Shown here: positions 12,956 through 34,858 of the stretch, in pieces | How positions within the stretch are numbered: the stretch's first letter is position 1 | How the letters are laid out: each line of letters begins with the position of its first letter | Source of the DNA: Roseofilum capinflatum BLCC-M114 | GTDB lineage: Bacteria > Cyanobacteriota > Cyanobacteriia > Cyanobacteriales > Desertifilaceae | Reading direction: 5' to 3' | DNA: 64,000 nt | NCBI RefSeq assembly: GCF_030068505.1 | Contig: NZ_JAQOSO010000109.1 | Location: 1-64,000 of the forward strand | Position numbers and translations under genes: made by a program | The notes under the pieces: generated by a model | The model's input: the letters and a program-made list of their open reading frames with translations, nothing else | Database searches by the model: none | What the model was told of the DNA's origin: nothing

Positions 12956-12956
12956 A

Positions 12957-13103
12957 TATCAAATCCGCTTGAATACCATAATTAAAAATGTAGGGAGCAA
13001 GATGCTCCCACTCCAGTAATATCAAATAATTGAGGGAGTGCGGGCATCTTGCCCGCTAGTTTAACTCATTTTCATGTCCGCTTGCGGAAACCGGACTTGA
13101 TAT
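12957..13103. mobile_element. MITE-like element, copy A
   Basis: About 147 bases bounded by TATCAAATCCG (12957-12967) and CGGACTTGATA (near 13092-13102), 11-base inverted ends with one mismatch. Inside are two hairpins, GGGAGC/GCTCCC (12993-13009) and GCGGGC/GCCCGC (13040-13056). The same parts occur in reversed order at 34710-34858, so the two copies are inverted relative to each other. There is no coding capacity. Confidence 0.8.
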
Positions 13104-13126
13104 AACGAATTAGCCCAAAGCAGTGA

Positions 13127-13171
13127 AAAACAACTGCCTCCCCTCTATAACCAGAAGGAGGCAGTTGTTTT
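13127..13171. terminator. Bidirectional terminator
   Basis: AAAACAACTGCCTCC (13127-13141) and GGAGGCAGTTGTTTT (13157-13171) form a perfect 15-bp stem with A- and T-rich feet on both sides. It lies between the convergent MshEN gene and CocE-like hydrolase gene and can end transcripts from both. Confidence 0.9.
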
Positions 13172-13266
13172 CGAGCTTATCCTGTAGCCACAGCTATCTT
13201 AGCTCCCCCTCTTCTGAGATATAGTAACAATGACTACGGGGATCGAAGGGAATTGGGAAAAAGAGT

Positions 13267-14898
13267 TTAAAAACTTGATTCTAGGGGTAAGAGGAGTCGG
13301 GAGGGACAAGCGCCACCTGATTGAAGGGTGAAGGTAATCACCTGAGCATCAATTAAACGACTTTGGGCCCCACATTGTCCTGTACCCGGATTCACCGGGT
13401 AAGCAGGGAAACAAGCCCCACTTAAACTTAAACGCAGACTACTGCCAACAGGTAATTGTATACAGGTCGATTGTAAGTGGATTTGTAGGGGGGTTTGGGT
13501 TTGATTGACACAGAGATAGCCTTGGGTAAAGTTATAAACTCGACCATCGGGTTTGACTTCCGAGAGGATGGCGCACAGGTCAAAGCTGTGAGTCGAGGCT
13601 TGGGCATAAACTTCAACGATCGCCTCTCCTAAAATACAGACAGGTTCTGTTAAGGGTTCGCTGGTATAGGTCACGGTATCGGTGCGACATTCGAGTAAGG
13701 AGCGATCGCAAGCTCCAAAGGGACTATACACATGGCCTCCCAAAGCCGGAAACGGTCGCCAGGGGTCATGAACCCAGCGATCTACACTGTCATTAGGGGG
13801 CAGATTTTCGATCAAAAAGCCCTCTTTATCGCTGATATTGGCCAGTCCCGTACTGGAGAGATAATAGGACTTTGGGGAATGGGAGGGCCATTGAGAGAGC
13901 GATCGCCATCGGTTACTTCCCATCTCAAACACCGAAATTGGAGGCATATCCAACCGTCCCGTATCCTGACCCTTGAGAAACTGATTAAACCAATTCACCT
14001 GAATCATATCAATAGGACTCCCGGCGGCCGCCCCATAATCCAATTCTCCCACCTTACGCCCCCAAGGGAGATGGGCCCAGGGGCCGATGATGAGATGTTG
14101 GGGATAACTACTGCGACCAGCCAACTGATGATACCAGCGCAACGTGCCCCGCAAATAGGGATCGAACCAGCCCCCAATATGGAGCATGGGTAAATCCACA
14201 CCATCTAAATTCGGCGATAAGTCTTGCCAATACTCATCCAGTTCCGGATGCTCTAACCACCGGTGATAAAAAGCATCGGGGCAATATTTCCGCAAGGTTT
14301 CATCTAAGCGCGGTTCTCGGCCATGGATGGGAAGATTTCGGGAGGCACTGTAGAGAATTTGATGGGCGATCGCATCTTTTTTTAATCGTGCCGTTTCAGC
14401 CGCTAATTGCAGGGCCCAACCTAAATTACCCGCCAAACAAAAGGCTCCCCCTTCATAGGCCCAATCTGCATATAAATCATAAGCAATCATCGCCGGACAG
14501 AGGGTTTTAAGCGCTTTCGGTTTCCCTGAAGCCGCATACAATTGGGTCATTCCCTGATAAGAAAACCCATACATACCCACCTCTCCCGTACTTCCAGGCA
14601 GTTGGGCCGCCCAATTAATCGTATCAATACCATCTTCGACTTCATGGGTAAACAGGTGAAACTCCCCTTGGGACGTTCCCCGACCGCGCACATCTTGAAT
14701 CACCACAATATAGCCATGGGCCGCATACCATTGGGGGTGAGCATAGACCACCGTCGAGGCAATTTCCCGACCATAGGGTTGCCGCATCAGCAGCACCGGA
14801 TAGGGGCCCTCTCCTTCCGGTTGATAAATATCAGCATCGAGTCTGACTCCATCACGAGCGATCAGGGATGCTGTTTGTTTGGGACGCAGAGTTAACAT
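13267..14898 (-). CDS. CocE/NonD family hydrolase
   Basis: 543-residue serine hydrolase of the CocE / X-Pro dipeptidyl-peptidase S15 family. The nucleophile elbow GMYGFSYQGMTQ (GxSxxG) sits in the N-terminal third. The acid is probably in LHIGGWFDPYLRGTL. The following IIGPWAHLPWG may carry the catalytic His. The C-terminal third is the jelly-roll domain of the family (EPLTEPVCILGEAIVEVYAQ, SFDLCAILSEVKPDGRVYN). There is no signal peptide, so it is cytoplasmic. The substrate, an ester or amide, is unknown. The length is normal. Confidence 0.92.
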   Translation of the reverse strand: MLTLRPKQTASLIARDGVRLDADIYQPEGEGPYPVLLMRQPYGREIASTVVYAHPQWYAAHGYIVVIQDVRGRGTSQGEFHLFTHEVEDGIDTINWAAQLPGSTGEVGMYGFSYQGMTQLYAASGKPKALKTLCPAMIAYDLYADWAYEGGAFCLAGNLGWALQLAAETARLKKDAIAHQILYSASRNLPIHGREPRLDETLRKYCPDAFYHRWLEHPELDEYWQDLSPNLDGVDLPMLHIGGWFDPYLRGTLRWYHQLAGRSSYPQHLIIGPWAHLPWGRKVGELDYGAAAGSPIDMIQVNWFNQFLKGQDTGRLDMPPISVFEMGSNRWRSLSQWPSHSPKSYYLSSTGLANISDKEGFLIENLPPNDSVDRWVHDPWRPFPALGGHVYSPFGACDRSLLECRTDTVTYTSEPLTEPVCILGEAIVEVYAQASTHSFDLCAILSEVKPDGRVYNFTQGYLCVNQTQTPLQIHLQSTCIQLPVGSSLRLSLSGACFPAYPVNPGTGQCGAQSRLIDAQVITFTLQSGGACPSRLLLPLESSF

Positions 14899-14956
14899 AA
14901 TTGCCTAGAAACGTTAGGACTGGAGAACAGTGCAGCCACTACACCTAATAGATAGT

Positions 14957-15256
14957 GTACGGTGGGCAAGGCGATCGGAGTAAACCTTACGTTTCTCACT
15001 TGACCTTGCTCATCCTACCCAGCCGTAGGGTGGGCAAGGTCAAGGGCGTAAATTCTCAACCCTCCCCTGAGACCTTGCCCACCTGACTTGTTCAGTGAAT
15101 TTAGCAGGTCAGTGTAGGGTGGGCAGGAATAGAAAAGAAAATGTGTATACTCATCAATATATCCTGCCCACCTTATCCTTGACTGGAGGCTGTACGGTGG
15201 GCAAGGTCTAATGACCAAATTCCAGATTTTCTGCGATCAACTTGCCCACCCTACTG
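14957..15256. repeat. Array of GGTGGGCAAG hairpin repeats
   Basis: Between divergent genes lie at least seven copies, in both orientations, of a unit like TACGGTGGGCAAGG or its complement CCTTGCCCACC, near 14959, 15024, 15073, 15115, 15162, 15194 and 15241. Neighbouring units pair into stems of roughly 10-14 bp. They fill most of the 414-base gap 14899-15312, leaving little room for the promoters of the hydrolase and the response regulator. Confidence 0.8.
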
Positions 15257-15312
15257 GATTATTACTTGAGGTCGGGGAGTGTCAACGCGTGAAGCGCTGT
15301 AACTAGATAAAG

Positions 15313-15990
15313 ATGAAAATTTTGTTGGTAGAAGACGACGATCGCATTGCCGAAGCCTTAGCGGAAGCTTTAAGGGATCGCCATTATACCGTGGATATTG
15401 CCGAAGATGGGGAACTCGGTTGGGCATTTATAGAATCAGCCGCGTATAATCTGATTTTGTTAGATGTAATGCTCCCCAAACTTGATGGCATTGAATTGTG
15501 TCAGCGACTGCGACAAAAGGGCTATACCATTCCTGTACTCATGCTCACCGCTAGAGATACTAGCACCGATAAAGTGATGGGCTTAGATGCAGGTGCAGAT
15601 GATTATGTGGTGAAACCCTTTGATTTACCAGAACTGATGGCGCGGGTGAGGGCACTTTTGCGCCGCAATCATGATATCTTACCGCCGATTCTGGAATGGG
15701 GAGAACTGCAACTTGACCCCAATACCTGTAATGTGGAATATGCAGGGCAATTGCTACAACTTACGCCGAAAGAGTATAGTTTATTAGAATTATTTCTTCG
15801 CAGCCATGGTCGGTGTTTAAGTCGGAGTATGATTTTAGATCAAGTCTGGTGTTTTGAAGAACAACCAGGGGAAGAAACAGTAAAAGTTCATTTACGCTCT
15901 TTGCGGCAAAAATTAAAAGCTGCGGGAGCGCCTGCGAATTATATTGAAACGGTTTATGGCTTGGGATACCGACTCAATCAAAATATCTAA
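15313..15990 (+). CDS. OmpR-family response regulator
   Basis: 225 residues. The N-terminal receiver has the acidic pocket EDDD (7-10), phospho-acceptor Asp51 in LILLDVMLP, the LTARD switch Thr, and the VVKPFD Lys. The C-terminal winged helix contains LQLTPKEYSLLELFLRSHG and the recognition segment VKVHLRSLRQKLKA, ending in YIETVYGLGYRL. It resembles the RppA/NrsR type of cyanobacterial regulators that respond to redox or metal signals. It is cotranscribed with the histidine kinase, whose start overlaps its 3' end by 35 bases. The DNA target is unknown. Confidence 0.93.
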   Translation: MKILLVEDDDRIAEALAEALRDRHYTVDIAEDGELGWAFIESAAYNLILLDVMLPKLDGIELCQRLRQKGYTIPVLMLTARDTSTDKVMGLDAGADDYVVKPFDLPELMARVRALLRRNHDILPPILEWGELQLDPNTCNVEYAGQLLQLTPKEYSLLELFLRSHGRCLSRSMILDQVWCFEEQPGEETVKVHLRSLRQKLKAAGAPANYIETVYGLGYRLNQNI

Positions 15991-17311
15991 GCGTCCGTTT
16001 AATCGTTTGCGCTGGCGGTTGTTGCTTTCCTATTTAGGGGTGATGATGGCGATTTTGGGTACTTCAACTTTGGCGGTTTATGAGTTTTTTGCGAATAGTT
16101 TATATGCCCAATTGGATCATCAGTTGTTGACGTTGGCAGATGCTGGGGTGCATGGTTTAGAGGCGGTGAAAGAACGATACGAGGAGGAGGAGGATGATGA
16201 TGAGGATGATGATGATTATGAGGCGATCGCCCCTCGGTTAGATAATGATGGCGATCTCGATATTCCCTGGCAAAACTTTCGCCAACCCGCTCAAGGCATT
16301 GAATGGTTTGATGAACGGGGCAATCTCTTAGCCAAACAAGGGCGCATTTTTCCCCCTGTACCCCTCGTTCTGCGGAGTTCTAATGAGGGTTCTGGACATA
16401 CCGTTAGGGGGGGAATTCGTACCCTGACTTGGGTGGCTCATGAGCAGGATGAGGACGATCTCGACATTGAAGGCTATGTGCGCGTCAGTCAATCTACAGA
16501 AGCGGTAGAGGAGGTGCTGGTAAAGTTGCGCTGGGGAATGCTCTTAGGAGGAGCGATCGCCGCCAGCTTAACGGCAGTCGGAGGCATCTGGTTAACCGAT
16601 CGCTCCCTCAAACCCATTGAAGCCAGCTTTAACCAACTCAAACAGTTTACCGCCGATGCTTCCCATGAATTGCGATCGCCCCTAACTGCCATCAAAACCT
16701 CCGTCGATGTCATGCTCTCCCATCCAGAGCGCATCCATCCCGCCGATATCAAGAAATTTGACGCAATCGCCAGCGCTCTCAAGCAAATGATCCGCCTAGT
16801 CGAAGATCTCCTCATCCTCGCTCGCACCGATCAAAGCAGTCATCCCAGTCAATGGGTAAACCTACCCCTCGAAGAACTCTTAGAAGACTTAATCGACTTA
16901 TGGCTACCCCAAGCCGAAGCCAAAGACATTATCCTCCGAGCCGATGAGATCGCCCCAGTCACCATCCAAGCAGATCCCTTTTTATTACAGCGCCTATTTG
17001 CCAATCTCCTCGAAAACGCCTTAAACTACACCCCCCCAGGCGGAAAAATCACCCTTTCCCTAGAGCAACAAGAAGACTGGATTACAGTTTCCATCCAAGA
17101 TACCGGCATCGGTATTGCCCCCGAACACCTGCCCCTCGTTTTCGATCGCCTCTGGAGAGCCGACAAAGCCCGCACCCGTCGCGCAGGCGGTTCCGGCTTA
17201 GGCTTGGCGATCGCCAAAAGCATCGCCGAACACCATCAAGGACACATTCTCGTCACCAGTCAACTCAACCTAGGCAGTTGTTTCCAAGTCCTCCTACCGA
17301 TTAATTTCTAA
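15956..17311 (+). CDS. Sensor histidine kinase with acidic sensor loop
   Basis: About 451 residues from ATG 15956. A TTG at 15944 would add four. It has an N-terminal membrane helix (LLLSYLGVMMAILGTSTLAV), an extracytoplasmic sensor domain, and a second helix (WGMLLGGAIAASLTAVGGIWL). The cytoplasmic kinase has the phospho-acceptor His237 in ASHELRSPLTA, an N box (NLLENALNYTPPGG), and G boxes (DTGIGIAPEHL, GGSGLGLAIAKSIAEHH). The sensor domain carries a run of 13 Glu/Asp in 14 residues (DNA 16181-16222), which could bind cations. It signals to the overlapping OmpR-type regulator. The next gene encodes a His-containing membrane protein, possibly part of the same response. Confidence 0.92.
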   Translation: MAWDTDSIKISKRPFNRLRWRLLLSYLGVMMAILGTSTLAVYEFFANSLYAQLDHQLLTLADAGVHGLEAVKERYEEEEDDDEDDDDYEAIAPRLDNDGDLDIPWQNFRQPAQGIEWFDERGNLLAKQGRIFPPVPLVLRSSNEGSGHTVRGGIRTLTWVAHEQDEDDLDIEGYVRVSQSTEAVEEVLVKLRWGMLLGGAIAASLTAVGGIWLTDRSLKPIEASFNQLKQFTADASHELRSPLTAIKTSVDVMLSHPERIHPADIKKFDAIASALKQMIRLVEDLLILARTDQSSHPSQWVNLPLEELLEDLIDLWLPQAEAKDIILRADEIAPVTIQADPFLLQRLFANLLENALNYTPPGGKITLSLEQQEDWITVSIQDTGIGIAPEHLPLVFDRLWRADKARTRRAGGSGLGLAIAKSIAEHHQGHILVTSQLNLGSCFQVLLPINF

Positions 17312-17380
17312 CCCTTTCCGAGTTTTTTACTTTTCATCCCTAAAGTGAATCCTAGGTCAAATATTAGAGGACGAAACCCC

Positions 17381-17950
17381 ATGAATCAGCGCACCTTTCG
17401 CAAAATTCATCGTCAAGTTGCCCCCATCTTATTCTTGCCCCTCATGATTTCCGCCTTAAGCGGCATCGGCTACCGCCTAGGAAAAAGTTGGTTTGGCATG
17501 TCTGGAGAAGCTGCCGATATTTTCATGATCTTCCATCAAGGGGAATATCTCGGCGACGCACTCAAACCCATCTATGTCTTGCTTCTAGGCATCGGTTTAA
17601 TCGGCATGATTGTCACCGGCGTAACCATGAGTCGATTTTGGCAACCTTCCAACCCCAAAGCCTCCAGTTCCCTACCCGCCTTTCGGCAAATTCACCGCAA
17701 ATTTGCCCCCATCATCTTTCTGCCCTTAGCCCTCAGTGCATTTACAGGTATCTTCTATCGCATTGGCAAAAGTTGGTTCGGTATGTCTTCCGAGCAAGCC
17801 GAAATTTTTATGGACATTCACCAAGGTGAATATTTTGGCGACTTCGGTAAACCCATTTATGTGCTTTTAGTCGGGTTAGGATTAATTGCCATGTTAGCCA
17901 CAGGCATTAAGATGACCGGCATTTTTCGCCAACGTCGCCCCCAAGAGTAA
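17381..17950 (+). CDS. PepSY-TM-like membrane protein with internal duplication
   Basis: 189 residues from ATG 17381, which has an AGAGGA ribosome site; an upstream GTG gives a poor N-terminus. It is made of two similar halves offset by 95 residues: FRKIHR/FRQIHR, GKSWFGMS in both, then FHQGEYLGD/IHQGEYFGD and KPIYVLL in both. Each half has two hydrophobic segments. His10, His52, His105 and His147 are conserved between halves and could bind heme or metal. It follows the two-component genes by 69 bases on the same strand and may be controlled by or work with them. It is related in style to PepSY-associated membrane helices. Confidence 0.75.
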   Translation: MNQRTFRKIHRQVAPILFLPLMISALSGIGYRLGKSWFGMSGEAADIFMIFHQGEYLGDALKPIYVLLLGIGLIGMIVTGVTMSRFWQPSNPKASSSLPAFRQIHRKFAPIIFLPLALSAFTGIFYRIGKSWFGMSSEQAEIFMDIHQGEYFGDFGKPIYVLLVGLGLIAMLATGIKMTGIFRQRRPQE

Positions 17951-18099
17951 CTCGAATTTCTCCCTTTTTATCTCCTGGCTAAAATTGACCCATTTTGCCT
18001 CTATGTCTGTTGACAATCCACTTAAGCTAAGATGAGAGCATCCACCTGTACATCAGGCTTGTCAATAGAAAGATGGTTTATTCATAGAGGTTAACTGCC

Positions 18100-19353
18100 A
18101 TGGCGCAGGATAGAAGAGCCAAATCCAAATCGTCAATTCGTCCCCCATCTCAGAGCATCTTAAGGCAACGGCTAAATGATAGCCAATGGACAAGATTTAT
18201 CAGCGAACTTTTAGGAAATAGTGGACATTTTCTCATCGTTAAGATTTTAACGGATATCATCTTAGATGGCTGGTTTGACTTTATTCATGACCCGACTGAA
18301 TATATCTTAATTGCTGCCATGATGGTGCAAACTTGGTATTTGTCTCGACCCAATGCCCATCGGTTGTGGGGCAATATTCTAGGCGTTTCTATTTACACTA
18401 TTATTGATGTGCCCGCAGACGGTTTAGGCTTTTTCCAAGATTATATTCATATCATTTTCTGGTCGTTTTCTTTAATCATTGCTATCTTACAGCACCTGCG
18501 CTTTGAAGGGAATAAAAACCGAGAAAACTGGATTATTCCCTTAGAAAGCTTAGTCCGCAGTGGCATGGTGGTGGCTTTCTATGTGGCGGTGGAAGTTAAA
18601 TCCTATGAACTTCCTCTGTATTGGGACTTAACCTCTAATTTTTGGCAAGAAAGCTCCCATCTTTTCTTGGTCGTCAGTATGCTATTGGTGGGAATTCTCT
18701 TAGGCTTGCAATCTTTACAAATTACCAAACAACGAGAAGAACTGCAAGAGACCGCCAAACTTTTAGGGAATATGGCAGAATGGGGCATGGGCGCTCATGT
18801 GGTGGAAACGGCTCTGAGTAATCCAGAGGCTTTAGCGTTTCAAAAGTGCGATCGCACGATTATCTTTATGGATATTCGCGGCTTCACCCATTGGTGCGAA
18901 ACCACCTCACCGGATTTAGTCGCCGCCGTTCTCAATCAATATTATACCCAAGTTGAACCGGCTGCCTCTCGCTATCAACCCCTGAGAATCACCTTTACAG
19001 CCGATGAAGTGATGGCCATTTATGCCACTCCAGGACAAGGCGTTGCTGCTGCCAAAGCCATGCAAAAAGCAGCTTTAACCGTCCTCACTCCCTATAAGAT
19101 TGGTGCGGGATGTGCTGTCCATTGTGGTCAAGTGACCGAAGGCTTATTTGGGAGTCAAGATGTACGCACTTATACTGTGATTGGAGATGTCGTTAACACG
19201 GCCAAACGACTAGAAAGCGCCACGCCAGCCGGAGAAATCACCCTTTCTGATGCCGTCTATCATGCCATGAGCCAAGACTTAAAAGTTCAACCCTGTGAAC
19301 CCATTAGCGCTAAAGGGAAATCGGAGAAATTAATCGCTTGGCGATTAGGGTAA
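18100..19353 (+). CDS. Membrane-anchored adenylate/guanylate cyclase
   Basis: 417 residues. The N-terminal half has several hydrophobic segments (IIDVPADGLGFFQDYIHIIF, SFSLIIAILQ, LFLVVSMLLVGILLGL), then a short coiled linker. The C-terminal class III cyclase domain shows the first metal Asp in TIIFMDIRGFTHW, a second in FTADEVMAIY, and VIGDVVNTAKRLESA with the transition-state Asn and Arg. All key catalytic positions appear present, so it should be active. The residues that choose ATP or GTP were not assigned with certainty. It is membrane bound with the catalytic domain in the cytoplasm, and makes cAMP or cGMP. Confidence 0.88.
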   Translation: MAQDRRAKSKSSIRPPSQSILRQRLNDSQWTRFISELLGNSGHFLIVKILTDIILDGWFDFIHDPTEYILIAAMMVQTWYLSRPNAHRLWGNILGVSIYTIIDVPADGLGFFQDYIHIIFWSFSLIIAILQHLRFEGNKNRENWIIPLESLVRSGMVVAFYVAVEVKSYELPLYWDLTSNFWQESSHLFLVVSMLLVGILLGLQSLQITKQREELQETAKLLGNMAEWGMGAHVVETALSNPEALAFQKCDRTIIFMDIRGFTHWCETTSPDLVAAVLNQYYTQVEPAASRYQPLRITFTADEVMAIYATPGQGVAAAKAMQKAALTVLTPYKIGAGCAVHCGQVTEGLFGSQDVRTYTVIGDVVNTAKRLESATPAGEITLSDAVYHAMSQDLKVQPCEPISAKGKSEKLIAWRLG

Positions 19354-19381
19354 TACAGTGCAAAGCGCTGTAAATGCCTCA

Positions 19382-19392
19382 TATCAAGTCCG
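19382..19392. repeat. Solo MITE end motif
   Basis: TATCAAGTCCG matches the 11-base inverted end of the element at 34710-34858. It lies in the 50-base gap between convergent genes, with no inner hairpins. It could be a remnant left after deletion, or a short repeat in its own right. Confidence 0.5.
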
Positions 19393-19403
19393 TTTTTAAA
19401 TTT

Positions 19404-20261
19404 TTAATTGATAATCCCTTCAAAGAGGGCGGAATAGTCATCATCGAAATGGCCGCGATCGCCGGATTTTTCTAAGACTTTGCCGATTCCCTCTAGCAAA
19501 CTCGCGTCTAACCCTAGCTCTCTGGCGGTTTGCAGAAATAACCGGGTATCTTTGAGCAGATGTTTCACCGGGAAATTGGGGTTACTGTACTGGCGATCGA
19601 GCATTCGTTGCAGTTTCTTGTCAAATGTGGGAGCATAGAGGGCACTTTGGCGCACCAGTTGCATGAAGGCTTCTGTGTCGATTCCTTCCTGTCGAATTAA
19701 ATGTAAACTCAGGGCAAAGGCGGTGGTGAGGGAGGCAATTAACTGGTTCATGGCTAATTTGACTGTGGCTGCACTGCCTACAGGGCCAAGGTGGAGCGGC
19801 TCCGGGCCGAAGGTTTGCAAGAGGGGTAGCCAGGTTTGAAAGTCCGCTTCAGATGCGCCTACCATCACCAACAGCGTCCCTTTCTTCACTTCCGGAATAC
19901 TGCCTAATACGGGCGCTTCTAAGTAATTTCCTCCGGCTTGGCGAATTTGTTGATCTAGGGTTTTGGTTTCTGTGGGGGCAATGGTTCCCATCTGGATAAG
20001 GGTGTGGCCTTCTAATCCTGATTGGGTGGTAGGATTGAGGATAACCTCGGCGATCACCTCAGCATTGGTGAGCATCAGGAGCGTACAGTCCGATGATTGT
20101 AGGACTTCCAGGGGAGAAGAGGCGATTTTCACCCCTTGTTCTGCTAAGGGTTTGACCTTCTCTGGTGTACGATTATAGGCAGTGACCTGATATCCGGATG
20201 TTTGTAATTTCAGGGCCATGGGACTACCCATTAGTCCTGTGCCTATGATACCGACTCTCAC
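19404..20261 (-). CDS. NAD(P)-dependent beta-hydroxyacid dehydrogenase
   Basis: 285 residues from GTG 20261, preceded by a strong AGGAGG site. The N-terminal Rossmann motif GIIGTGLMGSPMALKL and NRTPEKV favour NADP through the Arg after the second strand. The substrate-binding loop is EAPVLGSIPEVKKG. The catalytic Lys sits in AATVKLAMNQLIAS. The C-terminal all-helical domain has the family pattern KDTRLFLQTARELGL. It belongs to the 3-hydroxyisobutyrate / glyoxylate (GLYR) reductase group, most likely an aldehyde or glyoxylate reductase in the cytoplasm. The exact substrate is unresolved. Confidence 0.9.
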   Translation of the reverse strand: MRVGIIGTGLMGSPMALKLQTSGYQVTAYNRTPEKVKPLAEQGVKIASSPLEVLQSSDCTLLMLTNAEVIAEVILNPTTQSGLEGHTLIQMGTIAPTETKTLDQQIRQAGGNYLEAPVLGSIPEVKKGTLLVMVGASEADFQTWLPLLQTFGPEPLHLGPVGSAATVKLAMNQLIASLTTAFALSLHLIRQEGIDTEAFMQLVRQSALYAPTFDKKLQRMLDRQYSNPNFPVKHLLKDTRLFLQTARELGLDASLLEGIGKVLEKSGDRGHFDDDYSALFEGIIN

Positions 20262-20307
20262 AAGTGTCCTCCTCAGTTCCTTTTGATTCTTGACTGTTCT
20301 CTGACCT

Positions 20308-21627: not shown

Positions 21628-21671
21628 ATCGATGCTAGACACTGGGGGAACAATTACCCATTACCCAAGAC

Positions 21672-22331
21672 ATGAATACTCATACTTGTTTATCTGTGCA
21701 TCAAATTGGGCGCAAAATTCAAGAAAAATGGCTATGGAGAAATTTAACCTTTAGTTTAAAACCGGGATCTCGCTTGGGGTTAGGGGGAGCATCGGGAACA
21801 GGAAAAACTCTCTTATTACGCGCTCTAGCAGGACTCGATCCTTTGGATGAAGGCCAGATTTTATGGTCTAAACAGCCGGGAGAAGACTGCAATATCACCC
21901 CGAAACTCTTACCTTATTATCGTTCCCAAGCCATTTATATCCATCAACAACCTAGCCTATTTGAAGGAACGGTAGAGGAGAATTTACAGGTTGTTTATAC
22001 TCTGAAAATTCATGAACATAAAACCTATAATTTGGAATATATTAAAATGTTACTGAGCCAACTGAATCGCCCTTCAGACTTTTTGCAACGACCAGCCACA
22101 ACTTTATCGGGAGGAGAGCGGCAAATTCTGAGTTTTATTCGCGCTCTACAACTGCATCCAATGATTTTGTTTTTAGATGAACCGACGGCATCTCTTGACC
22201 CGCAAACGACGGAACAAGTGGAAAATTTAATCGATCGTTGGATTCAGGAAAATCCTCACAGGTGCTGTATTTGGACAAGTCACGATAGTCAGCAAATGGA
22301 GCGGGTAACGAGCGATCGCCTAGAATTGTAG
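21672..22331 (+). CDS. ABC transporter ATP-binding protein
   Basis: 219 residues, a single nucleotide-binding domain. Walker A GGASGTGKT (around residue 40), Q-loop in IYIHQQPSLFEG, signature LSGGERQ, Walker B MILFLDEPTASLD and switch His in WTSHDSQQ are all intact, so it should hydrolyse ATP. The size and LFEGTVEENL segment resemble the YbbL/FetA group, which needs a separate YbbM/FetB permease. No such permease is encoded here. Membrane proteins flank it on both sides: the TMEM143-like protein upstream and the 427-residue protein 48 bases downstream. Either may be a partner, or the permease lies elsewhere. Confidence 0.88.
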   Translation: MNTHTCLSVHQIGRKIQEKWLWRNLTFSLKPGSRLGLGGASGTGKTLLLRALAGLDPLDEGQILWSKQPGEDCNITPKLLPYYRSQAIYIHQQPSLFEGTVEENLQVVYTLKIHEHKTYNLEYIKMLLSQLNRPSDFLQRPATTLSGGERQILSFIRALQLHPMILFLDEPTASLDPQTTEQVENLIDRWIQENPHRCCIWTSHDSQQMERVTSDRLEL

Positions 22332-22379
22332 AAGGACGGATAAACCAACGAGCAAGAGAGACACGAAGAGGTAGTAGAC

Positions 22380-23685: not shown

Positions 23686-23696
23686 CGGACTTGATA
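23686..23696. repeat. Solo MITE end motif, inverted
   Basis: CGGACTTGATA is the exact complement of the motif at 19382-19392 and matches the right end of the element at 34710-34858. It lies in a convergent gap of 60 bases, with no hairpins. Confidence 0.5.
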
Positions 23697-26561: not shown

Positions 26562-27533
26562 ATGACCTCAACGACCTCCTTATTCCATCCAGTTGAAGCA
26601 GATGTACATCTGCTAACGGAAAACTTGAAACAGTTGGTTAGTGCGCGTCATCCGATCCTGTTTGCAGCCGCCGAGTACCTCTTTGGAGCAGGGGGGAAAC
26701 GACTGAGACCCGCAATTGTCCTATTAATCTCTAGGGCAACCACGACCAACGAAGACATCACCGATCGCCATCGGCGTTTAGCGGAAATCACCGAAATGAT
26801 CCATACCGCCAGCCTCGTCCATGATGATGTCGTCGATGAATCCGATCTGCGCCGGGGTCTTCCCACGGTTCACAGCAGCTTTGGCAACCGCATTGCCGTC
26901 TTAGCTGGAGATTTCCTCTTTGCCCAATCCTCCTGGTATCTGGCCAACTTAGATAATCTTGCCGTCGTCAAGCTTCTCTCAGAAGTGATTATGGACTTAG
27001 CAGAAGGAGAAATCCAACAAGGACTAAGACGATTCGACACCACGTTATCCCTGGAAGACTATTTAGAAAAAAGTTATTACAAAACCGCATCGCTGATCGC
27101 CAATAGTGCAAAAGCAGCCGGAGTTTTGAGCAATGTGTCTGAAGAGATGGCCCAAAATCTCTATCTGTATGGGCGCAATTTAGGATTAGCCTTTCAAATT
27201 GTGGATGATATTCTCGATTTTACCGGTTCTGACGAAGCCTTGGGGAAACCCGCAGCATCAGATTTGAAAAGTGGCAATCTCACAGCTCCCGTATTATATG
27301 CCCTAGAAGAACAGCCCGGTTTAGAAGCCCTGATTGAGCGAGAATTTAAGGAACCGGGAGATTTAGACCAAGCATTAGATTGGATTAATCACTCTGAAGG
27401 ATTACCTCGTTCTCGCGAACTGGCAGCCGAACATGCTCGCCGAGCGCGTCAAGGTTTAGTCGATCTGCCAAAAACCGAATCTTACGAAACGCTAATCAAC
27501 TTGACGGACTATGTACTGCGTCGTTTATATTAG
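26562..27533 (+). CDS. All-trans polyprenyl (solanesyl-type) diphosphate synthase
   Basis: 323 residues, isoprenyl synthase fold. The first Asp-rich motif is in SLVHDDVVDESDLRRG and the second in FQIVDDILDFTG. GAGGKRLRPAIVLL binds isopentenyl diphosphate. Small residues before the first motif (IHTAS) leave space for a long chain, consistent with solanesyl-type synthases that make the plastoquinone side chain. Cytoplasmic or membrane-associated. Usual length. It is called sds in some cyanobacteria, but the exact chain length cannot be read here. A 1-kb gene-poor region lies upstream. Confidence 0.93.
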   Translation: MTSTTSLFHPVEADVHLLTENLKQLVSARHPILFAAAEYLFGAGGKRLRPAIVLLISRATTTNEDITDRHRRLAEITEMIHTASLVHDDVVDESDLRRGLPTVHSSFGNRIAVLAGDFLFAQSSWYLANLDNLAVVKLLSEVIMDLAEGEIQQGLRRFDTTLSLEDYLEKSYYKTASLIANSAKAAGVLSNVSEEMAQNLYLYGRNLGLAFQIVDDILDFTGSDEALGKPAASDLKSGNLTAPVLYALEEQPGLEALIEREFKEPGDLDQALDWINHSEGLPRSRELAAEHARRARQGLVDLPKTESYETLINLTDYVLRRLY

Positions 27534-27590
27534 ATGTCTTTCAGAAGTGAGAGGATAGGGGGATGGGGAGATAGGGGAATGAGCGATTAC

Positions 27591-27618
27591 CCATGACCCA
27601 TAACCCATTACCCATTAC
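27591..27618. repeat. Heptamer tandem repeat (STRR-like)
   Basis: Four heptamers: CCATGAC, CCATAAC, CCATTAC, CCATTAC. They lie eight bases before the 3' end of the following minus-strand gene, in a convergent gap. Confidence 0.65.
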
Positions 27619-27625
27619 CTCCAAT

Positions 27626-28111
27626 TCAAGCCATATTGGGAGGAATATTAGACATGGGGGGAGCTGAACCCGAAGAGAGTTGAGCCAAATAAGACTGAAT
27701 TAAATTTTTCACATCTTCAGAGCGCACTTCTACAGCAGCTTGCAAATTGCCTGGAGTTTCAAAGAAAACTAAACTATCAATCGGCAAGGTCACTATTTGA
27801 AACAGAAGGGCAGTAATGGCGATCGGGACAGCCATCAAGTTAGGCTCGTCTTTAGCTGAAGGAGACTGAGCCGCATCTTTGAGGGAGGGAAAGGCATAAA
27901 TCACCTTCTTGGTGAATCCCGGTTCCTCATTATTGCTTAGGGTGGTGAACACCCACTCCTGGTTGACCGATTGCAAAATATAATATTGAGAATGTTGAAG
28001 TTGTTGGGCTAAGGCTTTCAGGGCAGGAGCGATCGCCGCTATGATCTGGGGTGTTGTACCATCTTGAGGGGCTTGATCGATTAAGGCTTGAATCTGGTCA
28101 TCTAAATCCAT
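27626..28111 (-). CDS. Conserved cyanobacterial protein of unknown function
   Basis: 161 residues, no signal peptide. The N-terminal half is helical (LDDQIQALIDQAPQDG, IIAAIAPALKALAQQLQHSQYYILQS). The second half is a beta-rich region (VNQEWVFTTLSNN, VPIAITALLFQIVTLPIDSLVFFE), then a helix (DVKNLIQSYLAQLS) and a Pro/Asn-rich tail. I recognise the layout from other cyanobacteria but no function is known. It is divergent from hetZ with a 181-base gap, so the two may share a control region. Confidence 0.7.
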   Translation of the reverse strand: MDLDDQIQALIDQAPQDGTTPQIIAAIAPALKALAQQLQHSQYYILQSVNQEWVFTTLSNNEEPGFTKKVIYAFPSLKDAAQSPSAKDEPNLMAVPIAITALLFQIVTLPIDSLVFFETPGNLQAAVEVRSEDVKNLIQSYLAQLSSGSAPPMSNIPPNMA

Positions 28112-28292
28112 AGGTTGAGCTTGGGTAGCATCGTGTCTTTAGTCTAGATTCCCAGTCTAGCCGATCGAAAGAGCAAAAAGACCAGAATTAACCAAATCTC
28201 AAACTCTTCAACCTATTCTCACAACACTTCAACCCAAGCTATGTTACCTTCATCTAAGCAAATCACTCTGGTTAGGGGGGATAAAGGAACTT

Positions 28293-29414
28293 GTGGAGCA
28301 GATTTATACAACTATCTTTGAACTCCTATGGGAGCAACTCCAAAAGTCAACCCAAGCGGGAGAGCGCAACTGTCGGCAAGTCGCCCATCGCATCGCTGGA
28401 GAAGTGACCCGCATTTGCATCGAGAGTCAACGGATTCAAGCATCCGGGGAAATAGAAGAGTGGGCGAAAAAGCTGGCTCAACTGCGCCTCAAGCAATGTT
28501 TACACTATTACCAGCAAGGTTCGGTTAAAGGTCGCCGAGATCTCCATAGCACCTTAGCGGCGATCGTCTATGGCTATATTAATCCATCTTATCGGTCAGC
28601 CAGTTATGCGGCCCGCACCACTTTAATTGAGGATTTTTTACAAGCCTTTTACCTCGAATCCTTCAATGCCTTCCGCCGAGAGACTGAACTACCCTTTAGC
28701 TATCATCCCAAAACCCGATTAGAAATTGGCGAATTTATGGCCTTTGCCGAGCGCTATGCCAAACGCCGCATTCGTCTGAGAGGCAACCGCTCGCAACAAC
28801 TGATTATTTTACGAGCGCAAACCTTTTCTCAACAACAACCTCCAGAAGATTTAGTAGACATTGAAAGTGCCTCAGAAGGGGGAAGTGCGGACTCAGAGTC
28901 TGAACGGCCCAGTCCCGGACTCTCCCAAGTCCGCAAGGCCATCAGTAATCAGGAGCCAATCCCGGAAGCCGATGAGATTACCGAAAAAGTAACCCAAATG
29001 CTTTTAGCGTATCTAGAAGAACGAGGGCAACAACAGTGTGCAGATTATTTTGTCTTCCGTTTACTCGATTTAGCCACCTCACAAATTGAATGGATTTTAG
29101 AGATTACCCCTAGGGAACGGGATTATCTGCAACAACGGTTCAAGTATCACTTAGAACGGTTTGCCCTTGGCCCCCATTGGGAATTAGTGCATGAATGGTT
29201 AGAAGCGGGCTTAGAACAAAATTTAGGCTTAATGCCCCAAGAGTGGGAAACGTTTACCAAGCAGCTCTCGGAAGAGCAGCAGCAACATTTAAATTTGAGA
29301 CAAAATAACTTTAATGATGAAGCGATCGCCGATCGACTCGAATGTACACTAACTCAAGTGCAAAAACGATGGATAAAGATCCTAGCGCAAGCTTGGGCGA
29401 TCCGCAATGCTTAA
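28293..29414 (+). CDS. hetZ: Heterocyst differentiation protein HetZ homologue
   Basis: 373 residues from GTG 28293, preceded by AAGGA. The N-terminal NCRQVAHRIAGEVTRICIESQRIQASGE, LHSTLAAIVYGYINPSYR and IILRAQTFSQQQPPEDLVDIE match HetZ as I remember it. The C-terminal half has a helix-turn-helix-like block (ITPRERDYLQQRFKYHLERFAL) and a second (DEAIADRLECTLTQVQKRW). In Anabaena, HetZ acts early in heterocyst differentiation and binds DNA. Non-heterocystous filamentous species also have it, so its presence does not prove heterocysts. patU follows after 27 bases, the conserved hetZ-patU order. Confidence 0.85.
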   Translation: MEQIYTTIFELLWEQLQKSTQAGERNCRQVAHRIAGEVTRICIESQRIQASGEIEEWAKKLAQLRLKQCLHYYQQGSVKGRRDLHSTLAAIVYGYINPSYRSASYAARTTLIEDFLQAFYLESFNAFRRETELPFSYHPKTRLEIGEFMAFAERYAKRRIRLRGNRSQQLIILRAQTFSQQQPPEDLVDIESASEGGSADSESERPSPGLSQVRKAISNQEPIPEADEITEKVTQMLLAYLEERGQQQCADYFVFRLLDLATSQIEWILEITPRERDYLQQRFKYHLERFALGPHWELVHEWLEAGLEQNLGLMPQEWETFTKQLSEEQQQHLNLRQNNFNDEAIADRLECTLTQVQKRWIKILAQAWAIRNA

Positions 29415-29441
29415 ATTAATCCGGAGAATTCACAATTTGCC

Positions 29442-30488
29442 ATGAATAGAGACCCAGAAGCCAAAATTGAAGCCCTGTTTAGTTGGCTCCTCAATCCTCC
29501 AGTGGATGACTCTTCTCCAGATTCAGAAGAAGGGATATCTAACCCCAGCCCCAATGAACATTCATCCCGATGGATGGCTCAATCCGATGAATCATCTGGG
29601 GATGGGGAGGAACTCGATCCTTTGGAGTCCGAAGATATTGATGGCATCTATCCCCCCCATTTAAGTTCCCAGGGCCAACCTTTAGAGATAGGAGAGATAC
29701 CCGCCGTGCAAGATCGTTTCCAGGCTTTATTAAAGCGACGCATTCAAGCTGAAATGCAATCCAATCTTCCCTTATTTCCTTGGGAGACCACGATTATGGA
29801 CTATGAGGATGACCCCTGTGAGGCAATTTCCTCTCCTCCTGTCCTTTCTCAACCTTGGATGCTACAGCTCAAACAATTGAATCTTCCTGTTCCAGTAGAA
29901 TTTCCTGAGTCTTTACTTGCCCAATTACTCGATCGCTGTCAACAGGTTGCCCAGTCTACCCTACAAGAGCCAGCTAAACTGGTGCAAGCGGTAGAAAATT
30001 TATTTCCCAATGACTTTCTGGCCTTGAATCAGATTACCAGTCGGTTATTGTTCGTCTATCGTGACCCCAATTCTAACCCGACTGAATCTCGTTCTCCCTT
30101 GGTGTATGAGGAAGCTCAACCCTCGCAAAAAATGCGGCTTTCTCTATTAGCGGCCCAAAAAATTCTCGAAACCCTCACCTTAGCTCCCGTGGTCAATCAA
30201 GCCCCAACTGAACGGGAATGGGAAACTGAAGTAGGATTACTGAGAGTTTGGGCAAATTATACTCAAGGTGAAAAGGGGTCGCAACTGCAAGTAGAAGCCC
30301 TGCTTCCTTGTGCCGGAAGTGTGCAGATCCAGGGTGAGGGTGGACAGGCGATCGCCAAACGCAATGCTCCAGGATATGTGAGTGTAGACTTATTTGATGT
30401 GATAGCAAATGGCCCCTATAGCTTAATTATTGAGCTAGAAAATAATCCCGAAGCACCCTTGATGTTTGCCATTCAACCCAGCCCCTAG
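29442..30488 (+). CDS. patU: PatU homologue, pattern-formation protein
   Basis: 348 residues. The N-terminal 80 residues are acidic and low in complexity. A helix follows (VQDRFQALLKRRIQAEMQSNLPLFPWETTI), then LDRCQQVAQSTLQEPAKLVQAVENLFP and a beta-rich C-terminal domain (LEVEALLP-type strands: GSQLQVEALLPCAGSVQIQ). In Anabaena 7120 this gene is split into patU5 and patU3 next to hetZ; here it is one intact frame. It affects heterocyst spacing in Anabaena, but the molecular function is unknown. The gene lies 27 bases after hetZ in one operon. Identification rests on context and remembered segments. Confidence 0.8.
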   Translation: MNRDPEAKIEALFSWLLNPPVDDSSPDSEEGISNPSPNEHSSRWMAQSDESSGDGEELDPLESEDIDGIYPPHLSSQGQPLEIGEIPAVQDRFQALLKRRIQAEMQSNLPLFPWETTIMDYEDDPCEAISSPPVLSQPWMLQLKQLNLPVPVEFPESLLAQLLDRCQQVAQSTLQEPAKLVQAVENLFPNDFLALNQITSRLLFVYRDPNSNPTESRSPLVYEEAQPSQKMRLSLLAAQKILETLTLAPVVNQAPTEREWETEVGLLRVWANYTQGEKGSQLQVEALLPCAGSVQIQGEGGQAIAKRNAPGYVSVDLFDVIANGPYSLIIELENNPEAPLMFAIQPSP

Positions 30489-30590
30489 AGCTTCTTAGCT
30501 CCAGCTCGGATACAAGAACAAAAAAATCTTGTTACACTAGCTTTTAGCTTAAAGTGAGCTTTTTTGAGCAAGCGTAACCAGAAATAGACT

Positions 30591-32933
30591 ATGGCAAACT
30601 CATCAGGGACGCGCCAGAGAGCAAACCTGCCCTTCTTATCCGATCTGTGGAAACGTTTAGAGCGTCTTCCTAAACCCGTGGCTGAAGAATCCATGTTCTT
30701 AAGAATATTGGTTCAAGCTTTAGTCAGTGTGGGAATTATGGCCACCGATGTGGCCGCCGGAACCCAAATGAGTCTGTGGGCCGTTCCTGTGGGGATGATC
30801 GGGGCCCTGTGGAGTTGGTATCGACGCAGAGATCGCAATGTAGTCACGAAATTTGCGATCGCCATTGGCATGTTAATTGCCCTATTTGTCTTCTTCGGAA
30901 ACCTGTTTACCCAGCTCAATGATACCCGCTTGGTTCTGGCTGAACTGCTGGTTCATCTCCAAGTCTTACATAGTTTCGATCTACCGCGCCGCAAAGACTT
31001 GGGCTATTCCATGATTATTGGGCTAATTTTAATTGGTGTGGCTGCCACTCTGAGCCAAACCCTAGCCTTTTCTCCCCTATTATTTGTGTTTCTGGCGATC
31101 GCCCTTCCCACCCTAGTCTTAGATTATCGCTCACGCCTCGGATTATCGCCCCTAACCTGGACTCGAAAGCGCAGATCCTCTTCAGATAACCGGCTCTCCT
31201 TAGCACCTGAACTGGCCCCCAAACAACTGGGCTTGATGCTGTTAGTAATTCTGGGATTAGGGATGGCCCTGTTTGCCGCTTTCCCTAGAGTTCCGGGCTA
31301 TCAATTCCGCAATTTCCCCGTTAGCGCTCCTCCGATGATGGAAGAAGAAGACCAAAGCTTTCAGGGACTACCGGGAACCATTACCAACCCAGAAACTGCC
31401 GAAGACGGAGAAGGTGAGGGTGCAGGGGAAGGGGGAGATGCTCCTAGGGAAGGAGCGGGTCAGATGGATGAGACCTTTTACTATGGATTTAATAGCCAAA
31501 TTAACCAGAATTTGCGAGGTGAACTGACTCCCCAGGTGATGTTGCGGGTTCGCTCTCAGGCCGAAGGGTTTTGGCGAGTTCTAGGGTTTGATCACTACAC
31601 AGGCCAAGGATGGGAAATTCGCCAAGAGGATACGGCATTGGTGGAACGTCCGGGTTGGTCGTATAAGTTCGATCTCCCTCGTAGTCACTCTCTAGCTAGA
31701 AGTCGGGAAATAGTGCAAACCTATACAGTGGTTGAACGTTTACCCAACTTAATTCCCGCCTTGTATCAAGCTGAGGATCTGTATTTTCCCACGCGGGAAG
31801 TAGGGATGGATAAACATGGAGGGTTGCGATCGCCCCTAAACCTACGGGAAGGCTTAACTTATACGGTCATTTCCGAGGTTCCCTATCGCGATCGCTCTAT
31901 CCTGCGGGAAGCTTCAACCGACTATTCTCAAGAGATTCGCGACCTGTATCTGCAAATTCCCCCAGAAATTGCCGATCGCATCCGTCAGAAAACTGAGGAA
32001 GCCTTAGCGACTTCAGAAAATCCCTTAACCGATCCCTACGAAAAATCCCTCTATCTGGCTCAATATCTGAAACAACGCTATAGTCTACAGCCACAACTCC
32101 CCTTTTTTGATGAGAGTGAAGACCTGGTAGAAGCCTTTTTATTTAAGTATCAAGGGGGCTATCCCGATCACTTTTCCACCACCTTAACGGTTATGTTAAG
32201 AGCGATCGGCATTCCTGCCCGTCTAGCCGTCGGCTTTGGGCCAGGGGAATTTAATCCCTTTACCGGACTGTATGTGGTTCGCAATACCGATGCCTTTGGC
32301 CTCACCGAAGTCTATTTTCCAGAGTATGGCTGGTTTGCCTTTGACCCCATCCCCGGCCATCCCCTGATTCCCCCCTCTATTGCTGACTATCAGAGCTTTA
32401 GTGTCCTGCGCCAGTTTTGGAACTGGGTGGCGGGTTGGTTACCCTCTCCGGTGAAAAATGCATTTACGGCGATCGGGGCGTTTATTATGACCGTTTTAGT
32501 CAGATCCCTGATTCGCCTCTGGCAACTGATTTCTAATGGTTGGACAGGATTCTTTATTGGCGCAATTTTAGCGATCGCCCTCTCCTTTGCTGTCTGGGTT
32601 TTATTCAAACAATGGCAACAATGGCGGCGACAAAGATGGCTCTCCAAACTCCATCCCATGGAGCGCATTTATCAAGAATACTTAGGCATTCTCAGAGAAG
32701 CCGGTTATCCCAAACATCCCGCCCAAACCCCCCAAGAATATGCCCACAGTTTGCGCGGCAAGTATGGCTCAGAAGCAGCGCAAGTAATTGACGAGATTCC
32801 CCAAGCCTATGTGAAATGGCGCTATGGCGGCATCGAAACTCAGTCTATTCCGGATTTGCAGCAGGGTTTGCAACAGTTAAAACAAAGGTCTCGACAAAGA
32901 AAATTACAAACCCAGGATGCAATTAAAAACTAG
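30591..32933 (+). CDS. Transglutaminase-fold membrane protein (TgpA-like), degenerate
   Basis: 780 residues. The N-terminal DUF3488 part has about six membrane helices between residues 35 and 235. A transglutaminase-like domain follows (residues 450-610), one more helix near 650-675, and a C-terminal DUF4129-like domain (YQEYLGILREAGYPKHPAQTPQEYA). In active TgpA-type domains the core reads G-Y-C-E-H-F; here it is GGYPDHF, with Pro525 at the Cys position. The His normally in 'HAW' is replaced in DAFGLTEVYFP. The last acid (FDPIPG) remains. So it is probably a structural or binding protein rather than an enzyme. It is a cyanobacterial variant of a broad family. Confidence 0.85.
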   Translation: MANSSGTRQRANLPFLSDLWKRLERLPKPVAEESMFLRILVQALVSVGIMATDVAAGTQMSLWAVPVGMIGALWSWYRRRDRNVVTKFAIAIGMLIALFVFFGNLFTQLNDTRLVLAELLVHLQVLHSFDLPRRKDLGYSMIIGLILIGVAATLSQTLAFSPLLFVFLAIALPTLVLDYRSRLGLSPLTWTRKRRSSSDNRLSLAPELAPKQLGLMLLVILGLGMALFAAFPRVPGYQFRNFPVSAPPMMEEEDQSFQGLPGTITNPETAEDGEGEGAGEGGDAPREGAGQMDETFYYGFNSQINQNLRGELTPQVMLRVRSQAEGFWRVLGFDHYTGQGWEIRQEDTALVERPGWSYKFDLPRSHSLARSREIVQTYTVVERLPNLIPALYQAEDLYFPTREVGMDKHGGLRSPLNLREGLTYTVISEVPYRDRSILREASTDYSQEIRDLYLQIPPEIADRIRQKTEEALATSENPLTDPYEKSLYLAQYLKQRYSLQPQLPFFDESEDLVEAFLFKYQGGYPDHFSTTLTVMLRAIGIPARLAVGFGPGEFNPFTGLYVVRNTDAFGLTEVYFPEYGWFAFDPIPGHPLIPPSIADYQSFSVLRQFWNWVAGWLPSPVKNAFTAIGAFIMTVLVRSLIRLWQLISNGWTGFFIGAILAIALSFAVWVLFKQWQQWRRQRWLSKLHPMERIYQEYLGILREAGYPKHPAQTPQEYAHSLRGKYGSEAAQVIDEIPQAYVKWRYGGIETQSIPDLQQGLQQLKQRSRQRKLQTQDAIKN

Positions 32934-33110
32934 CCTGACCGGTTAAAATAGAAGACGATCCTCCTCCCTTATTCTATGCATATATTTGATACCTCTTGCC
33001 TCTTGCCTAGCGCGAAGGGCTATATCATACATTACCAAATTATCTTTAAGCAATGGGGCCTCTTGAGCAGGCAGAGGCTAAAATAGTTGGCGTTAAAATA
33101 AGGCTCTAGC

Positions 33111-34559
33111 ATGACCCCTGCCATGAATAATCATCCGATTCATAATACTTTTAAGATTCTTCCCCTGATTGCCAGTGCCATGGTGTTAGCCTCTTGTGGC
33201 AAAGAGCAAGTACAGGCAACAGCAACCGCTCGTCCGGCGGTTCCCGTCGCTTTTGGAGAGGTGGAATCGGGGCGGGTCAGCGATGGCACAGAATATAATG
33301 TGGCCTTAGTGTCAAGGGAAATAGCCAATGTGCGCCCTAGGGTGAGTGGAAATATTTTAGAGCGCTATGTGGAGTTAGGCGATCGCGTCACCGCCGGACA
33401 ACGAATGTTTGTCATCGATCCCATTGAACAACAGGCTGCCGTGAATTCCCAACTGGCGCAAGTCGGATCGGCAACAGCCGCCGTAGAGACCGCCAAAAGT
33501 AATCTGCAATCGGCGATCGCCGAACGGGCCCGCATTGCCGCCGAAAAAGACCTCAACTCCGCCCGCGCCAACTGGGAAAACGCCAAATCCACCCTCCTCT
33601 CCCAAGAAGCCGAACTCACTCGCAGGCAAGCCCAACTCGACTATCAAACCCTAGAAAATGAGCGCTACCAAGCCCTCGCTGCCGATGGAGCCGTTTCCCA
33701 AGAAACCGCCGATCAAACCAAACGCTCCTATCTGCAAGCCCAAGCCGATGTCAAAAACCAAGAAAAAGTGATCGAAGCCGCTCAATCTCAAGTCGAGAGT
33801 ACCCGCCGAGCCTACGATCGCCTCATTGCCTCCGTCGATGCCCAACTCGCCGCCCAAGATCAAGTCATCGCCGGAGCTAGGGCCGAAATTGCCCGTGCCG
33901 AACAAGACCTGCAACGCACCCGGCAACAAGCCGCCGAAGCAGAAGCCCGGTTAGGATTCTATGAAATTAACGCGCCCTTTTCCGGAACCGTGGGCAACGT
34001 CCCCATCAAAGTCGGGGATTTTGTCGATAGCCAAACCCTTCTAGCCACCGTCAGCCAATCCCAACCCTTAGAAGTGCTGATTCAAATTCCCATTGACCGG
34101 TTGGCCCAAGTCCGTATTGGCACAAAAATCGAACTCAAAACCCAAGATAATCAACCCATTACCACCATTCCCGTCTCCTTCATTTCCCCCCAAACCGATC
34201 CCAATACCCAAACCATTACCATTAAAGGCATCTATGCCAACGCCCAAAACCAACTCCGAACCGATCAATTGGTCAAAGCCAAAGTCGTTTGGGAAGATCG
34301 ACCCAGCTTAACCATTCCCACCACTGCTATCAAGCGCATTGGGGGCCAAGCCTTTGTATTTGTGGTCAATGAATCAGAAGGGCAACAAGTCGCGACCCAA
34401 ACCCCCGTCACCCTAGGCAGTATCACCGGGCAAAACTTTGTCGTTCAAGAGGGCTTACAAGGAGGAGAAACCATCGTCACCGAAGGGGTGGTTAAACTCT
34501 TCGATGGGGCTGCCGTGGTCGATGCCAGCACCTTGCCCAATTCTGCGGAACAATCTTAA
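33111..34559 (+). CDS. RND efflux periplasmic adaptor (MFP)
   Basis: 482-residue membrane fusion protein. A lipoprotein-type signal ends in MVLASCGKE, so the mature N-terminal Cys is lipidated. The domain order is standard: half-barrel and lipoyl part (NVRPRVSGNILERYVELGDRV), a long coiled hairpin of about 200 residues (longer than usual), the second lipoyl half (GFYEINAPFSGTVGNVPIKVGDFVD), then beta-barrel and membrane-proximal domains (IPTTAIKRIGGQAFVFVV). It links the inner-membrane pump, encoded 350 bases downstream, to an outer-membrane channel. No TolC gene is here. The substrate is unknown. Confidence 0.93.
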   Translation: MTPAMNNHPIHNTFKILPLIASAMVLASCGKEQVQATATARPAVPVAFGEVESGRVSDGTEYNVALVSREIANVRPRVSGNILERYVELGDRVTAGQRMFVIDPIEQQAAVNSQLAQVGSATAAVETAKSNLQSAIAERARIAAEKDLNSARANWENAKSTLLSQEAELTRRQAQLDYQTLENERYQALAADGAVSQETADQTKRSYLQAQADVKNQEKVIEAAQSQVESTRRAYDRLIASVDAQLAAQDQVIAGARAEIARAEQDLQRTRQQAAEAEARLGFYEINAPFSGTVGNVPIKVGDFVDSQTLLATVSQSQPLEVLIQIPIDRLAQVRIGTKIELKTQDNQPITTIPVSFISPQTDPNTQTITIKGIYANAQNQLRTDQLVKAKVVWEDRPSLTIPTTAIKRIGGQAFVFVVNESEGQQVATQTPVTLGSITGQNFVVQEGLQGGETIVTEGVVKLFDGAAVVDASTLPNSAEQS

Positions 34560-34673
34560 GCCAGAAATCTTAAGCAATGTAACAGGCTTCTCTTGTGAAA
34601 ATCCAGCCTTAAGATAAACTGAAGGCATTTACGAGCGATTTTTTAATGAAGTCGGGTTACCCTAAACCTGTTA

Positions 34674-34684
34674 TATCAAGTCCG
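34674..34684. repeat. Extra MITE end motif beside copy B
   Basis: TATCAAGTCCG lies 25 bases left of the same motif at 34710-34720, so copy B has a doubled left end. Confidence 0.6.
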
Positions 34685-34709
34685 ATTAAACCGCTATGAT
34701 TACAAATCA

Positions 34710-34858
34710 TATCAAGTCCGGTGAATGGGAAAAAACAAGCGGGCAAGATGCCCGCACTCCTGGAATCCCTTGATATTACTGGAGTGGGAGCGTCTCGCTC
34801 CCTAGACTTTGAATTGTGGGGTTTCCGCTTCGTGGACATGAATAACCGGACTTGATAT
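34710..34858. mobile_element. MITE-like element, copy B
   Basis: About 149 bases with perfect 11-base inverted ends, TATCAAGTCCG (34710-34720) and CGGACTTGATA (about 34847-34857). Hairpins GCGGGC/GCCCGC (34739-34755) and GGGAGC/GCTCCC (34786-34802) lie inside. The order is reversed relative to 12957-13103. The element sits between the RND adaptor and pump genes and could affect their co-expression. Confidence 0.8.

Follow-up and report, generated by a model that had tools for sequence, protein, structure and literature searches.

The window, a whole stretch of 64,000 nucleotides from Roseofilum capinflatum BLCC-M114 (contig NZ_JAQOSO010000109.1, positions 1 to 64,000), carries two copies, A and B, of a short repeat with terminal inverted repeats (TIRs) and two inner hairpins. 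They belong to a family of miniature inverted-repeat transposable elements (MITEs), whose ends, insertion rule and likely partner transposase are the subject of this analysis. A preliminary description had given both copies the same parts in opposite orientation, and these are present in the sequence (Table 1), including the hairpins GGGAGC/GCTCCC and GCGGGC/GCCCGC. Its starting points were right; the last base it assigned to each copy is already flank, so that the true ends are 13102 (A) and 34857 (B). The shared inverted ends of 11 bp also exist, with the restriction that the left end of copy A is one mismatch off the end motif TATCAAGTCCG. The flanks of copy A are TAA/TAA; those of copy B are TCA/TGC, so that B has no intact duplication. 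A 36-bp piece of a second element abuts the left side of copy B; this piece and the lone ends at 19382 and 23686 were absent from the preliminary description. Copy B lies between an HlyD-type domain gene (33111-34559) and an AcrB-type gene (34909-38262), the adaptor-pump pair it was said to split. Neither open reading frame (ORF) is broken because the copy sits in the intergenic stretch.

Table 1. Features of the MITE family in the window (TSD, target-site duplication).
Feature	Position	Strand	Basis
TSD TAA, left flank of copy A	12954-12956	.	sequence, flank comparison
Copy A, 146-bp double-hairpin MITE	12957-13102	+	ends and TSD TAA/TAA; fold z -5.10 (one flank base included)
Left TIR of copy A, TATCAAATCCG, 1 mismatch to TATCAAGTCCG	12957-12967	+	end-motif search
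Hairpin 1 of copy A, GGGAGC-AAGAT-GCTCCC, then ACTCC	12993-13009	+	sequence
Hairpin 2 of copy A, GCGGGC-ATCTT-GCCCGC, GGAGT just before	13040-13056	+	sequence
Right TIR of copy A	13092-13102	-	end-motif search
TSD TAA, right flank of copy A	13103-13105	.	sequence, flank comparison
Lone end motif between two ORFs	19382-19392	+	end-motif search
Lone end motif; inward sequence resembles right end of L037 MITE type	23686-23696	-	end-motif search
Left-end piece, 36 bp, of another MITE type of the family (TATCAAGTCCGATTAAACCGCTATGATTAC...)	34674-34709	+	by-eye comparison with L037 element
Copy B, 148-bp double-hairpin MITE, reversed, between adaptor and pump genes	34710-34857	-	blastn, flanks, fold; same insertion in G001
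Hairpin 2 of copy B, GCGGGC/GCCCGC	34739-34755	-	sequence
Hairpin 1 of copy B, GGGAGC-GAGAC-GCTCCC	34786-34802	-	sequence

The end motif is not a product of chance: with up to one mismatch it occurs nine times in the window, compared with a mean of 0.91 and a maximum of four in 100 shuffles, and the genome of the strain (G000; 5.37 Mb, 120 contigs) has 129 exact TATCAAGTCCG ends and none of the reversed pattern. The genome-wide search for further copies was positive. Copy B has at least 42 blastn matches in G000, itself counted; this is a lower bound, as 40 of 198 candidate places were scored. The commonest lengths of double-hairpin MITEs, in a search restricted to 120-190 bp, were 164, 146, 148 and 166 bp. 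Within Roseofilum (G000-G005), hairpin-bearing MITEs are present in G000, G001 and G003, and TNA-preceded ends number 114 and 243 in two genomes. In a core scan of a named collection, all matches listed (120 stretches) came from two strains, Roseofilum acuticapitatum BLCC-M154 and R. halophilum BLCC-M91. The motif TNATATCAAGTCCG is more widespread: of 291 genomes of the order, 138 contain it. Its reversed control is present in 23 genomes, with one or two matches per genome. Many single matches may be due to chance; the 30 or more matches reached by some non-Roseofilum genomes, for example G013, G086, G097 and G159, are not.

Elements with these ends enclose at least three different cores. Besides the double hairpin, a GTCATTGCGA...GCAATGAC core is present in L033, L035, L036, L038, L040 and others, and a GTAGGTGGGCAGG...CCTGCCCACC core in L037; L034 is a mixture of both other cores. 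By a crude test, 29 of the 30 best-scoring copies in G000 lie outside ORFs, the exception (L023) falling within an ORF that a contig end leaves open. Where both neighbouring genes were known (n = 26), they were convergent in 9 cases, in the same direction in 16 and divergent in one. The elements are short, multicopy and bounded by inverted ends, and too short for a transposase gene. The designation as MITE-like is therefore borne out by size and copy number and, as described below, by target-site duplications, empty sites and shared ends.

The flanks define the insertion rule. Identical 3-bp flanks were found in 69 of 119 TIR pairs, a set in which all core types are mixed and overlapping and false pairs are included. 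Every one of them is TNA, with N near even (TCA 21, TGA 18, TAA 17, TTA 13), and none of the 119 extends to 4-bp identity. Among 80 double-hairpin rows, in which alternative ends of one element (L018, L039, copy B) are counted separately, 68 have TNA on both sides; of these, 53 are identical, compared with about 17 expected for a random N. Empty sites of family members lack exactly TATCAAG...CTTGATA plus one TNA (L020 compared with L063; L077 with L095 and L061; L136 with L160 and L048). At L196 (G001, contig C66, around 1300-1700), a 146-bp MITE with TCA/TCA flanks is nested at a TCA in the central spacer of another double-hairpin MITE. Insertion thus takes place at TNA with a duplication of three bases. 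The near-identical 164-bp copies at many sites, the empty sites and the nested insertion indicate that the family has been mobile recently.

For the two copies in the window, no exact empty site was obtained in relatives. The insertion of copy B is common to G001, where it has an extra 49-bp tandem unit, and is therefore probably older than the split between G000 and G001. In G003, the adaptor-pump gene pair lacks the element, but the intergenic stretch differs. The two flanks of copy A match separate contigs in G001, G003, G004 and G005, part of the candidates being scored in some genomes.

Further details of the copies concern their spacers and surroundings. The spacer between the hairpins (13010-13039 and 34756-34785) contains TAA-TATCAA(G), in which a TNA precedes half of the element's own end; this may be the trace of an old nested insertion or of recombination between end and core. 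The stretch to the right of copy B (34859-34905) has short ATTCCCC/ATTCCCT repeats, of which 14 bp are missing in G001. Similar runs flank several other MITE copies.

A candidate for the mobilising enzyme is encoded between the same ends. In other genera of the order, three inverted end pairs about 1.2 kb apart have an IS630-type transposase gene inside: L221 (1137 bp, open frame of 353 aa, flanks TCA/TCA), L222 (1194 bp, open frame, flanks TTA/TGA) and L220 (1185 bp, broken frame, flanks TTA/TTA). The L221 and L222 proteins match the IS630 profile NF033545 with 219.9 and 228.2 bits (cut-off 100; E = 5e-65 and 1.5e-67), and the transposases also match PF13358. Within Roseofilum, G004 has 41 transposase matches, mostly fragments at contig ends, and G005 has five weak ones. 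An exact TIR at the right end is present at 17 G004 loci, and TNA follows in all 10 examined. The right end of a G004 transposase fragment agrees with that of the L037 MITE in 31 of 34 bases, or 20 of 23 beyond the 11-bp TIR. The MITE ends are thus shared with transposase-bearing elements of the same genus and of other genera. The preliminary description had proposed looking for an insertion sequence (IS) with the same ends; it exists, although no such element turned up in the strain's own genome. One longer candidate was rejected: L031, a 1.9-kb inverted end pair with a 484-aa ORF, in which no transposase was recognised by eye.

The transposase has matches at E 1e-60 or better in at least 43 of 291 genomes of the order (up to seven candidates scored per genome). 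Ends were sought in 20 near-full-length loci out of 30 related ones, partial matches and L283 being left out, and were located in 16; L264 and L265 are second entries for L221 and L222. TNA stands on both sides in all 16 and is identical in 10, compared with about four expected for a random N. L268 was missed by the end pattern owing to one T, yet its ends show TAA on both sides. In the transposases, the spacing between the second D and the E is 31 residues in all 12 distinct sequences scored (14 rows; only frames with an LQPAE-type motif). The IS630-family element is the likely partner of the MITEs.

The inner core is an inverted pair of palindromes, GGGAGC..GCTCCC-ACTCC ... GGAGT-GCGGGC..GCCCGC. 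Both hairpins have a GGAGT foot, share the ATCTT loop in copy A and differ in two compensated pairs. The tetranucleotide foot (GGAG) and the inverted arrangement are the features of repetitive extragenic palindromes (REPs), bacterial interspersed mosaic elements (BIMEs) and REP doublets forming hairpins (REPINs). The motif GGAGTGCGGGCNNNNNGCCCGC was counted 59 times in G000, 280 times in G001 and 94 times in G003; it was absent from G002, G004 and G005 and present in 10 of 291 genomes in all. The dimer also occurs without MITE ends. In G106, it forms a tandem array with a period of 85-87 bp, and G170 has a related array with a period of 132-135 bp; these genomes belong to other families of the order and have no TNATATCAAGTCCG. 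Compact dimers without MITE ends are present in the own genome as well (L032, L321). The hairpin pair is a REP-like dimer separable from the MITE ends.

In the minimum-energy fold of copy A, the two hairpins become part of a single long stem, and the folds of four copies have z values of -5.1 to -6.8. The observation that the inner stretches vary while the stems are kept was correct: the hairpin 1 loop is AAGAT in copy A and GAGAC in copy B, with one compensatory pair. Selection on structure, which the preliminary description had suggested, is only partly backed by this. Among 203 loop rows, some of them tandem or partial units, the loop is AAGAT in 126, GAGAC in 71 and different in 6. The loop and stem differences are few changes inherited by many copies; the palindromes are kept, the reason not being shown thereby. 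The same compensatory trace would also result from palindrome correction during replication. Local tandem multiplication of a single hairpin or the dimer, in units of about 24 to 126 bp, was seen at L128, L118, L059, L320 and G003:C21:1170-1263.

Taken together, it is highly probable that the MITE family, with its REP-like dimer core, is moved in trans by an IS630-family transposase that recognises the shared TATCAAGTCCG ends and inserts at TNA. The enzyme would act on MITEs of commonly 146-166 bp, cut them out and paste them in at TNA, whereby three bases are duplicated. Movement by this transposase, and by cut and paste, is inferred from the shared ends, the shared insertion rule and the enzyme family. 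The REP-like dimer was probably acquired within the Roseofilum lineage and multiplied together with the MITE. Several observations weigh against this explanation. Identical flanks are missing in 27 of the 80 double-hairpin rows, the TNA flanks are unequal in 6 of the 16 related elements, and L222 has TTA/TGA. What was compared as an empty site may be a further copy of a repeat, and not the orthologous site, in the cases of L077, L136 and L064. The double-hairpin type, unlike the L037 type, clearly shares the TIR alone with the partner. No transposase match was found in G000-G003, of which G000, G001 and G003 carry hairpin MITEs; an IS present in several copies may have dropped out of these fragmented assemblies.

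Other movers have to be considered. A 3-bp TNA duplication is the textbook rule for the IS1031 group of the IS5 family, so the flanks by themselves would suit an IS5-type enzyme. The elements with these ends encode an IS630 transposase, not an IS5-type one. The 16 DUF4096 (PF13340) loci of the genus that were examined all lack an inverted end pair with up to two mismatches per end, although contig ends truncate many of them and some contain a single end. Two of the three DDE_Tnp_1 loci in the own genome lack any end, and the third has one loose inverted pair, with three mismatches over both ends and TNA missing on one side. Movement by an IS1031-group element is therefore very improbable. The hairpin dimer itself could be the mobile unit, that is, a REPIN or BIME moved by a REP-associated tyrosine transposase (RAYT, Y1 type) with incidental MITE ends. 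The inverted palindromes with their GGAG foot, the tandem arrays in G106 and G170 and the compact copies without ends would fit. The flanks, the empty sites and the nested copy, however, define a moving unit that runs from TIR to TIR. No hairpins were detected in the 30 Y1 loci examined, out of 61 matches in eight genomes (up to 1.5 kb on each side, several cut by contig ends), nor near the two own-genome genes of RAYT length, which are accompanied by other, GTAG-footed repeats. A RAYT as the mover is improbable. Of these two genes, L177 (G000:C7:55721-56086) contains one in-frame TAG and has GTAGGTTGGGTTGAACGAAGTGAAACCCAAC repeats on both sides, as does a RAYT-length Y1 transposase gene in G003 (L347); L176 (G000:C18:287-655) adjoins GTAGGGTGTGTT repeats.

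The elements might also be kept for a function of their RNA or DNA, as 3'-end hairpins, terminators or processing sites, with movement being a matter of the past. The position outside ORFs, the rarity between divergent genes (1 of 26) and the stable folds of four copies are in line with such a role. Selection against gene disruption alone would leave the same intergenic bias, and no Rfam family matched in the window. The near-identical 164-bp copies, empty sites and nested insertion speak for recent movement, and retention for function is a rather unlikely explanation.

The MITE family is ordinary in kind; what is unusual is that an IS630-type element follows a TNA rule and that the cargo is REP-like. 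The chances are about even that a clade of cyanobacterial IS630-type elements, with a D-E spacing of 31 residues, has shifted from TA to TNA and spreads REP-like dimers as MITE cargo in Roseofilum. If true, one mobile repeat rides on another. The family is a well-populated natural set, with 114 and 243 TNA-preceded ends in two Roseofilum genomes and the partner in a third, and lends itself to studying shifts in the target rule of IS630/Tc1/mariner transposases and the spread of REP-like hairpins by a DDE transposase. In genome annotation, it accounts for many short repeats between genes and for some of the contig breaks. None of the papers listed by a literature search with the end and hairpin sequences was on cyanobacteria by its title, and no report of a TNA duplication for IS630 was found in the open-access literature, in which the IS630 target-site papers were only partly covered.

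Known cyanobacterial MITEs, including Nezha (cited in PMC3733652 and PMC10969869), are likewise short, non-coding, mostly intergenic and present in many copies, with TIRs and a target duplication. The Roseofilum MITEs differ by their REP-like dimer core and the TNA duplication. Another likeness is GTAG-15 of Anabaena variabilis, a REP dimer within a longer palindrome (PMC3733652). The published outer sequence of that palindrome, TATAGGA..., is unlike TATCAAGTCCG, and no mobiliser for it is named in the accessible part of that paper. The IS1031 group of IS5 has the same TNA duplication, but its transposase family differs from that of the IS630-type partner. The spacing between the second D and the E is usually 34 in IS630/Tc1-mariner (ITm) elements. 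The partner transposase matches the profiles of this superfamily, NF033545 and PF13358, but has 31 residues at this place and duplicates the 3-bp TNA. According to PMC8533490, ITm members recognise and duplicate TA, or TATA in the case of Sailor. The TNA rule departs from this statement, as the partner does not show a TA target with a 2-bp duplication. With an enzyme of the family and a different target rule, the partner is a variant and not a typical IS630 member.

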